NCBI RefSeq assembly: GCF_007671725.1
Contig: NZ_VCNM01000001.1
Span: 62,001-126,000 of the forward strand
Direction: 5' to 3'
Length of the DNA stretch: 64,000 nucleotides
Source of the DNA: Halorubrum depositum
Lineage (GTDB): Archaea; Halobacteriota; Halobacteria; Halobacteriales; Haloferacaceae
The translations under genes and the position numbers were made by a program. A model generated the notes under the pieces. It did no database searches, was not told the origin of the DNA, and saw nothing but the letters and a program-made list of their open reading frames with translations. This document shows, in pieces, positions 6,268 through 19,864 of this stretch. Each line of letters begins with the position of its first letter. The first letter of the stretch is position 1.

Positions 6268-6347
6268 CGCCCCTCGGCCGACGCGAGTACCGGATCCGAA
6301 CGGGTTCGCGGCAAGCCTTTTGGACGATTCGCACGTATCAACGGGCG

Positions 6348-17276: not shown

Positions 17277-18374
17277 TCACGCGTCGGATCCGGGGTCGTA
17301 CACGTCTGGGTTCGGCTCGCCTTCGACGTCCACGACCGCGAGCGCACCGCGCCGGCCGGCGCGCGAGAGCGCGTGGTCGACGATCTTGATCGGCCCCGGA
17401 ACCACGAGGTCCATCTCCCCGACCGTCGCCGTACCCGGCGCGACCGGCGTGGTCTCGACGTAGCGCGCGGGCGGCGAGACGAGGTCGCCGTCGCGGTACA
17501 GCCGCGACCAGACGTTGCCGATCGGGTGCCACGAGCTGGACTGGTTCGGTCCGCCGTTGACGAAGAACACCCGGACGGTCTCGCCGACCGCGGCGCCGAT
17601 CGCGCCGCGACGGTCCTTCGTGAAGCCGTGGTCTTCGCCGTTGAAGACGACGTACGTCGGCTCCTCGTCGACCATCGCGCCCTGGTCGAACGCGTGGTGG
17701 CCCTTCTCGCCGAGGTCGCCGGTCGTGTACAGCTCGTGCTGTCCGAGGTAGATTTCGCGATCCACCGCCGGCAGTCCCGCCTCGGGCTCGACGAGGATCG
17801 CGCCGAACATCCCGGAGCTGACGTGGTGGTCCATCGCCGGCACCGCGCAGTGGTAGGTGAACAGCCCGGGGAACTCGGCGCGGAAGCTCAGTTCCGCGGC
17901 GTCGTCGCCGGGCACGAGCGTCGTGTCGACGGCGCCGCCGCCGGGGCCGTAGACGGCGTGGAAGTCGACGTTGTGGATGTCGCTGTTGTCGTCGGCCGGC
18001 ACCTCGAACCGGAGGTTCACGGTGTCGCCCCGCCGGACGCGGATCATCGGTCCGGGGACCTGTCCCTCGAACGTCATGTACTTGAACGTCACGCCGGGCT
18101 CGATCTCCGCGACGAGCTCCTTCGTGCGAAGGGTGACGTCGTGCTCGCGGGGCTCGTCCCAGTCGACGGGGGCCGGCACGTCGGTCGGGTCCGCCGCGAT
18201 CCGGTCGACGTCGACGTCGCGTGCGGGGTCGAGTTCGGGGGCCTCGTCCGGGCTCGTCCCGGCGTTGGACGCGGGCTCCGCGTTCACCGGCGCGCCGATA
18301 CACCCGGCGAAGGCACCGACCGCTCCCGCGCCGATCGCCTGCACCGCCCGCCGCCTGCTGAGGTTCTGTGTCAT
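17277..18374 (-). CDS. nirK: Copper-containing nitrite reductase
   Basis: A 365-residue exported two-cupredoxin protein. The N-terminus SRRRAVQAIGAGAVGAFAGCIG has twin arginines and a lipobox-like AGC, so Tat export and lipid anchoring are likely. Copper ligands are visible: HNVDFHAVYG (type 1 His and catalytic Asp/type 2 His) near residues 135-145, and YHCAVPAMDHHVSSGM (Cys, His and Met of type 1 copper with a type 2 His) near residues 175-190. WHPIGNVW near residue 290 gives a further type 2 ligand. NirK reduces nitrite to NO outside the membrane. A short leader and a TATA at about 18405-18417 are seen. Confidence 0.93.
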   Translation of the reverse strand: MTQNLSRRRAVQAIGAGAVGAFAGCIGAPVNAEPASNAGTSPDEAPELDPARDVDVDRIAADPTDVPAPVDWDEPREHDVTLRTKELVAEIEPGVTFKYMTFEGQVPGPMIRVRRGDTVNLRFEVPADDNSDIHNVDFHAVYGPGGGAVDTTLVPGDDAAELSFRAEFPGLFTYHCAVPAMDHHVSSGMFGAILVEPEAGLPAVDREIYLGQHELYTTGDLGEKGHHAFDQGAMVDEEPTYVVFNGEDHGFTKDRRGAIGAAVGETVRVFFVNGGPNQSSSWHPIGNVWSRLYRDGDLVSPPARYVETTPVAPGTATVGEMDLVVPGPIKIVDHALSRAGRRGALAVVDVEGEPNPDVYDPGSDA

Positions 18375-18538: not shown

Positions 18539-18934
18539 TCACTCCCGTCCGTCCCGCGGGTCGAACTCGCCGCGTCGGATCCCCTCCCGGACCGGATCGT
18601 GTTCCGCGTCGGTCGGGGGCGGCGCGGTGACGAGAACCGCTTCGAGGCGCTCGCCCTCGTCCGCCTTCACGCCGCGCTCGGTCCCCGCCTCGACGACGAC
18701 CACGTCGCCGGGGGCGACGGCGTGGTCAGTGTCACCTTCACGGACCGTTCCCGTGCCGGACTGGACCGTGACGACCACGTCGCTCTCGGGGGCGTGGACC
18801 GGGATGAACTGCCCCGGCTCGAAGTAGCCGCAGACGACCTTCGCTCGGTCGCTCCGGAACACGCCGCTCGTCGAGAAGCGCTCCTCGTCGTACGTTCGCT
18901 CCGCGTCGAGGCTCGTCGCCGGCACGTCACTCAC
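18539..18934 (-). CDS. Cupin-domain protein
   Basis: A 131-residue single cupin (MSDVPATSLDAERTYDEERF). Motif one, FEPGQFIPVHAPESD, keeps one histidine, and motif two is HAVAPGDVVVVEAGTERGV. The first His-x-His pair of enzymatic cupins is reduced, so metal binding is uncertain. The position upstream of nirK on the same strand, with 164 bp between, and the frequent pairing of such cupins with haloarchaeal denitrification genes suggest a role in sensing or repair there. Function unproven. Confidence 0.8.
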   Translation of the reverse strand: MSDVPATSLDAERTYDEERFSTSGVFRSDRAKVVCGYFEPGQFIPVHAPESDVVVTVQSGTGTVREGDTDHAVAPGDVVVVEAGTERGVKADEGERLEAVLVTAPPPTDAEHDPVREGIRRGEFDPRDGRE

Positions 18935-19057: not shown

Positions 19058-19069
19058 CGAACGTGTTCG
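19058..19069 (+). promoter_or_regulatory. Operator-like inverted repeat before the DUF2249 gene
   Basis: CGAACGTGTTCG, an inverted repeat of CGAAC with a two-base spacer, ends 40 bases before the DUF2249 start codon. The identical 12-mer recurs at 19761-19772 and a near copy at 19813-19823, each 38-41 bases from a start codon of the same nitrogen-oxide block. A regulator site just upstream of the core promoter is the likely meaning. Confidence 0.65.
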
Positions 19070-19109
19070 TCTCAAGGCGGATGCGGACGCGCACGCAACG
19101 GTCGACCGC

Positions 19110-19343
19110 ATGCCGAGACTAGACGTGCGCGACATTCCGCCGGTGAACAGGCACGACCGGATCCACGACGAGTTCGACGGGATGGAGCCCGGCGAGACGC
19201 TCACCATCGTCAACGACCACGAACCGAAGCCGCTGTACTACGAGATGGCCGCCGAGGTGCCCGCCTTCGACGAGGAGGGGTACGAGGTCCGGCAGGACGC
19301 GCCCGACGAGTTCGTCGCCGAGTTCCCGAAGGTCGAGACGTAG
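19110..19343 (+). CDS. DUF2249 domain protein
   Basis: A 77-residue protein starting MPRLDVRDIPPVNRHDRIHDEF; the longer frame upstream crosses the operator and is excluded. It matches DUF2249 throughout: LDVRDIPPxxRH at the start, FDGMEPGETLTIVNDHEPKPLYYEM in the middle, and EVRQDAPDEFVAEF near the end. This SirA-like fold domain is common beside nitrite and NO reduction genes in haloarchaea, consistent with its position between nirK and a truncated haemoglobin. Its biochemical role is not established. Confidence 0.85.
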   Translation: MPRLDVRDIPPVNRHDRIHDEFDGMEPGETLTIVNDHEPKPLYYEMAAEVPAFDEEGYEVRQDAPDEFVAEFPKVET

Positions 19344-19357
19344 GCGCCGGGTCGCGG

Positions 19358-19723
19358 CTACTCGCGCTCGACGTCGAACAACCGCGCGACGGCCCGAACG
19401 GTCGCCGGCTCGTCCCGTGCGGGTCGCTCCAAGGCCGACTCGGGAGCGGCCGTCAGCCCCCTGGCTATCGCCGTTCCGAGGAGACGGACCGTCTCGCGCT
19501 GCTCGTCCGTGAGACCGCCGCGCGCCTCGAGCGACGAGATCGCCTCCCCGACCTCGCGGCGCTCGATCCGCTCCGCTCGGTCCCGTATCCGCCGCCGGAC
19601 GCGGTCCGGATCGGGAGCTCCGTCATCGGCCGATCCGTTGTCGGCCCCTCCGTCTCCGCTCGATTCGTCGCCGGGCTCGCGAACGGCCGGTCGTCGTCGC
19701 GCGTCGAGCCGTTCGTGTCTCAT
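19358..19723 (-). CDS. Small protein resembling the glutamyl-tRNA reductase dimerisation domain
   Basis: A 121-residue acidic protein (MRHERLDARRRPAVREPGDES). A low-complexity acidic-glycine linker is followed by helices IRDRAERIERREVGEAISSLEARGG and VRLLGTAIARGLTAAPESALERPA. That pattern resembles the C-terminal dimerisation domain of HemA, without its catalytic and NADPH domains. The resemblance is from memory and moderate. A CGAACGTGTTCG repeat lies 38 bases upstream, which places it in the same regulon as the DUF2249 and haemoglobin genes. A role tied to haem supply for denitrification is speculation. Confidence 0.6.
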   Translation of the reverse strand: MRHERLDARRRPAVREPGDESSGDGGADNGSADDGAPDPDRVRRRIRDRAERIERREVGEAISSLEARGGLTDEQRETVRLLGTAIARGLTAAPESALERPARDEPATVRAVARLFDVERE

Positions 19724-19760
19724 ATCGGATCGCCGGCCGCCACGCGGGTCAGCGTTCACC

Positions 19761-19772
19761 CGAACGTGTTCG
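19761..19772 (-). promoter_or_regulatory. Operator-like inverted repeat before the HemA-like gene
   Basis: CGAACGTGTTCG, identical to the site at 19058-19069, lies 38 bases upstream of the start codon at 19723. It sits in the divergent intergenic region shared with the truncated haemoglobin gene. Confidence 0.65.
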
Positions 19773-19812
19773 CCACGAGCCTCCGGTCCCCGCGAGTCGC
19801 GAACGACGTCCC

Positions 19813-19823
19813 CGAACATGTTC
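19813..19823 (+). promoter_or_regulatory. Operator-like inverted repeat before the truncated haemoglobin gene
   Basis: CGAACATGTTC contains the perfect palindrome GAACATGTTC. It ends 41 bases before the ATG at 19865 and about 12 bases before the TATA-like TCTTAAG near 19835. Third member of the CGAAC-2-GTTC set in this block. Confidence 0.65.
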
Positions 19824-19864
19824 TTTCGAATCGGTCTTAAGTCGCAAGAAACACGGTCGAAGCG

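Follow-up and report, generated by a model that had tools for sequence, protein, structure and literature searches.

What does the repeated palindrome beside the copper nitrite reductase gene nirK of Halorubrum depositum do, which genes does it serve, and which protein reads it? In the window, the whole 64,000-nucleotide stretch of DNA analyzed here, a first-pass annotation had placed one 12-mer at 19058 and 19761 and a variant of it at 19813, and all three were recovered in sequence and coordinates (Table 1). Their placing, described there as equal at 38-41 bases before the start codons, proved near-equal (40, 37, and 40 bases), the range being 37-40. The globin copy, CGAACATGTTCT, is one base off the full palindrome CGAAC-N2-GTTCG. 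In the divergent HemA-like/globin pair each gene has a site of its own, and 52 bases separate the two sites. Pfam searches of the block returned DUF2249, GlutR_dimer, Bac_globin, two multicopper-oxidase domains, cupin, and SLAC1; the HemA-like protein is without the catalytic and NADPH domains. For nirK itself the match was as weak as had been noted, with 7/10 half-site bases at best in the 200 upstream bases scanned in the window.

Table 1. Operator sites and genes of the nirK block, with the candidate regulator encoded elsewhere in the genome
Feature	Position	Strand	Family and score	Placing or remark
Operator CGAACGTGTTCG	19058-19069			40 bases before DUF2249 start (ATG 19110); 123 before divergent cupin gene
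Operator CGAACGTGTTCG (CGAACACGTTCG on minus strand)	19761-19772			37 bases before HemA-like start (ATG 19721-19723)
Operator CGAACATGTTCT	19813-19824		11/12, 1 mismatch	40 bases before globin start (ATG 19865)
DUF2249 protein, 77 aa	19110..19343	+	PF10006, 82.5 bits	
Stand-alone HemA (glutamyl-tRNA reductase) dimerisation-domain protein, 121 aa	19358..19723	-	PF00745 GlutR_dimer, 26.0 bits (cut-off 22.9)	
Truncated haemoglobin, 121 aa	19865..20230	+	PF01152, 76.4 bits	
Copper nitrite reductase NirK	17277..18374	-	NCBIfam TIGR02376, 359.1 bits (cut-off 296.3)	
Small cupin protein	18539..18934	-	PF07883	Divergent from DUF2249
Candidate regulator	C2:490117-490788		HTH_10 PF04967, 69.5 bits (cut-off 23.1)	

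In a second genome of the Halorubrum group (G038, locus L347) a one-change copy, CGAACGTATTCG, is retained 40 bases before the DUF2249 gene, and a globin 78% identical to that of the window (genome G086) had an upstream site the same in both sequence and gap (40). The cupin gene probably belongs to the same gene set; cupin genes of similar type were found inside clusters of other genomes (e.g., at locus L164, where a site precedes the gene by 39 bases). A further exact 12-mer, CGAACGGGTTCG, occurs at 6297-6308, 138 bases before a peroxiredoxin-like gene; it is outside the set, as its GG core and its distance do not fit.

Copies with at most one mismatch numbered 12 in the window versus 7.9 +/- 3.0 in shuffles, a count within chance. 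Copy counting alone was rejected as evidence: it was non-significant in the window and noisy between genomes, because CGAACGTGTTCG was also found inside genes. The whole genome (3.18 Mb) contains 39 copies of CGAAC-N2-GTTCG. Among the perfect copies with a GT, AC, or AT core, 8 of 10 were intergenic and 7 of 10 lay 37-40 bases before a start, a figure that includes the HemA-like gene, which was missed by the gene caller and entered by hand from its Pfam match. At 0.00095 genes per base, about 0.04 such placings would be expected (binomial P ~1e-15); the gene calls came from a simple home-made codon model run on stretches around copies of CGAAC-N2-GTTCG and GAACRTGTTC. The remaining 29 of the 39 perfect-half-site copies were mostly intragenic. 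One-mismatch copies were mostly intragenic as well, yet they contributed three more placed sites, for a set of about 10. Random genome-wide occurrence, the outcome that the first-pass annotation had named as fatal to its proposal, thus does not hold for the copies with GT, AC, or AT cores, although other-core and one-mismatch copies do lie mostly within genes. Position and gene context, not copy number, exceed chance, and we take the copies outside the set as background.

The genome search that had been suggested for the 12-mer and its downstream genes thereby returned about 10 placed sites, all at NO/denitrification-type genes and with gaps of 37-44 bases. The genes 3' of them encode DUF2249 proteins (three), the HemA-like protein, the globin, a MoaD-like protein, a copper ATPase, a COX1-like membrane protein, a cupin, and a TIGR04053 radical SAM protein. 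The MoaD-like gene is divergent from norB, and a divergent pair of DUF2249 and COX1-like genes has sites at C2:492790 and 492837, 47 bases apart. Upstream scans found no good copy at the nirK, narG/nar operon, or nosZ of the genome; the gene set here is therefore one of NO handling and accessory functions, not the whole denitrification pathway.

Conservation was assessed without prior choice of motif by comparing all 1024 5-base half-sites, at spacers of 0-8 and from -100 to -21, across 79 loci picked by a regulator protein (described below) rather than by the motif. CGAAC with a spacer of 2 ranked first among palindromes (99 versus 10.6 expected), and the site-to-start gaps across these loci peaked at 37-40. 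The targets of positioned sites across genera were DUF2249 (54), the regulator gene (22), MoaD-like (9), COX1-like (8), CGCGG RiPP (6), copper ATPase (5), and halocyanin (4) genes. Sites of nirK in other genera lay 67-81 bases upstream; on annotated plasmids of Haloferax larsenii and Halobellus limi, sites were placed at 42 (regulator), 66 (norB-like), and 67 (nirK-like).

The sections of two papers on Haloferax mediterranei drawn on here describe the same element. In that species the promoters of nar, nir, nor, and nos all contain the semi-palindrome CGAAYATDKTYG; point mutations of it lowered nos and nor promoter activity under anoxia, had no significant effect for nir, and had none for nar. 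Hattori et al. 2016, as cited there, reported a similar motif in the same types of promoter from several genera, Halorubrum among them (PMC10062603). RNA sequencing showed that a cyanoglobin, two DUF2249 genes, and a bacterio-opsin-activator-like gene, all with the motif, rise under denitrifying conditions; the regulator that binds the motif was called undisclosed, the candidates being two bacterio-opsin-activator-like genes, one of them in the nirK-nor cluster (PMC11218638). Each window site agrees with the CGAAYATDKTYG consensus at 11/12 positions, with one difference, and the norB-side site at C1:399545, CGAACATGTTCG, is identical to the nos and nor copies as they appear in Table 3 of PMC10062603. 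The sites also share the location of the published motif upstream of denitrification genes: positioned copies adjoin the norB/MoaD-like, DUF2249, globin, and copper ATPase genes, among others, but not the nirK, nosZ, or nar of this genome. The first-pass annotation had supposed a longer spacer for the related motif; there is no such difference, CGAAC-N2-GTTCG and CGAA-N4-TTCG being two spellings of one motif. The window operator is therefore the published denitrification motif and already known, and its link to DUF2249 and truncated-globin genes is likewise already published, the former in PMC10062603 and the latter in PMC11218638.

The H. mediterranei system resembles the one here in sequence, in its nor- and nir-type promoters, in its DUF2249 and truncated-globin targets, and in a linked bacterio-opsin-activator-like gene. 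It differs in its published gaps of 79 (nirK), 66 (nor), and 69 (nosZ), versus 37-44 in this genome, and in that the nirK, nosZ, and nar of this genome are without a good copy. The common regulator that had been proposed for a nitrite/NO block is well supported by about 10 promoters, dozens of haloarchaeal loci, and the H. mediterranei mutagenesis (PMC10062603). That the three sites are chance palindromes is scarcely credible: haloarchaeal DNA is GC-rich and abounds in CGAA and TTCG, the window count falls within the shuffles, and most other-core copies are intragenic, but the positional clustering in the genome, the half-site ranking in other genomes, and the published mutagenesis all contradict it.

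We propose that CGAAC-N2-GTTCG acts as the operator of the haloarchaeal denitrification/NO gene set, that a dimeric activator would bind the palindrome, with a weak TATA-like region following directly downstream, and that the genes would be switched on at low oxygen in the presence of N-oxides or NO. The likeliest binder would be a short HTH_10 (bacterio-opsin-activator-like) protein whose gene stands beside nirK, norB, halocyanin, and DUF2249 genes in many genera and is often itself under the same operator. We regard this explanation as a whole, with an HTH_10 binder of this kind rather than NarO, as probable. The positions of the sites, their enrichment, the target genes, the linkage, and the co-occurrence are observed here, whereas the identity of the binder, the nature of the signal, and the activation of the genes in Halorubrum depositum are what we infer. 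Haloarchaeal genes are mostly leaderless, and 37-40 bases before a start falls just upstream of the BRE/TATA. Aligned promoters showed only a weak A-rich, TATA-like stretch. A palindrome that adjoins the expected BRE/TATA could, on general grounds, also serve a repressor, for instance one relieved by NO, whose binding would block the promoter. We consider this very improbable, for the weak TATA-like regions also suit an activator-dependent promoter, and the loss of nos and nor promoter activity on mutation of the motif under anoxia suits activation; by analogy with H. mediterranei, position, weak TATA, and mutational loss together would fit an activator site (PMC10062603).

The candidate regulator gene lies in a second NO cluster (C2:488-497k); the leading gene of its operon encodes a DUF2249 protein and has a site at 38. 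Its orthologues adjoin nirK, norB, or globin genes in many genomes, with halocyanin and DUF2249 genes also as neighbors, and in Haloferax larsenii and Halobellus limi the HTH_10 regulator is encoded between or beside norB and nirK. A site lay no more than 120 bases upstream of the regulator's own gene in 31/79 loci and before an upstream gene of its operon in 16/79 further loci; the other 32/79 had no recognized site before the regulator or its operon. With presence set by a bit-score threshold of our choosing, regulator and nirK were both found in 46 genomes, the regulator only in 19, nirK only in 2, and neither in 22 (Fisher P ~1e-7, genomes being counted without phylogenetic correction). 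Of 29 sites sampled from ten genomes with the regulator, 5 were positioned, and these genomes held 19 or more copies with an AT core; ten without a close orthologue had 0/30 positioned and no AT core among the 69 copies listed, this comparison likewise being uncorrected for phylogeny. Compared with the bacterio-opsin activator Bat, the candidate shares the HTH_10 domain and matches the BAT-associated N-terminal domain weakly; it is short (about 220 aa), and the Pfam scan found neither a PAS nor a GAF domain in it. Linkage, co-occurrence, and sites in its own gene or operon make this HTH_10 protein the likelier binder.

NarO of Haloferax volcanii, and DmsR, share the PF04967 domain family and physiology with the candidate. 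NarO reportedly carries, according to the abstract of Hattori 2016, a conserved cysteine motif, CXnCXCX7C. This pattern is absent from a 16-member alignment (A2) of the site-linked family, whose members are encoded near nirK/norB and not before nar; the candidate itself (C2:490117) is far from narG (C2:218.7k) and so not upstream of the nar operon. The sites might nevertheless be bound by NarO, or by some other HTH_10 protein that bears cysteines and senses oxygen, with the nirK-linked protein as one more of its targets, and a site at the regulator gene fits such a cascade as well as it fits autoregulation. This genome does encode a cysteine-rich HTH_10 protein near nosZ (C2:502007), although none of its HTH_10 proteins matches the cysteine pattern as searched here, its nar genes have no adjoining HTH_10 gene, and its nar operon has no site; compared as a NarO homologue, the C2:502007 protein gave only partial plasmid matches (at most 54% coverage). 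The link to NarO made in the first-pass annotation stands insofar as the NarO paper of Hattori et al. 2016 is cited for a similar motif before denitrification genes in several genera, but NarO as the binder is unsupported, H. mediterranei being described as having a functional motif and no narO homologue (PMC10062603). We therefore judge binding by NarO or its like unlikely, and NarO a less likely binder than the candidate HTH_10 protein, because the site-linked family is without NarO's cysteine motif.

What is new beyond the published work is evidence pointing to one regulator family, a positional rule for finding members of the set (37-45 bases before a start, or 66-81 for nirK and norB), and the stand-alone HemA-domain gene, which is not named in the sections of the H. 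mediterranei work drawn on (PMC10062603, PMC11218638). Several other genera have similar short genes within their nirK or regulator clusters; the product might modulate HemA and thereby adjust the synthesis of haem under NO. The broadest form of the proposal, in which the cysteine-poor, nirK/norB-linked HTH_10 protein would bind the motif across haloarchaea, control its own gene, and govern a set that includes the HemA-domain protein and rSAM/RiPP genes, is in our estimation evenly balanced between right and wrong.

Genes for TIGR04053 radical SAM proteins and rSAM-modified RiPPs (CGCGG and Htur_1727 families) carry or adjoin the operator at C2:113480, C1:288637, and L027 in this genome and at L225 and L399-L401 in relatives, and the RiPP system may therefore belong to the NO set.

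Globin promoters retained the palindrome only in part of the family. In other genera (L096, L100, L105, L116, and more) a conserved CCCGAGTGTCTTAG-like stretch, perhaps a diverged or different operator, replaces it 42-45 bases before the start. The closest relatives of the window globin (78% and 73% identical) were in another genus, and there was no match in 5 of 7 congeners sampled; this patchy distribution suggests gene gain or loss. A second palindrome, CGACC-N2-GGTCG, was enriched upstream in loci L258-L336 (16 versus 2.4 expected). At L392, a site at 1501 lies 97 bases upstream of a gene whose protein starts with MEESLAFAPVFEEFGIDYCCGGDVS and which, by that start, we take to be ScdA/Ric-like, of a family that repairs NO-damaged iron-sulphur centres.
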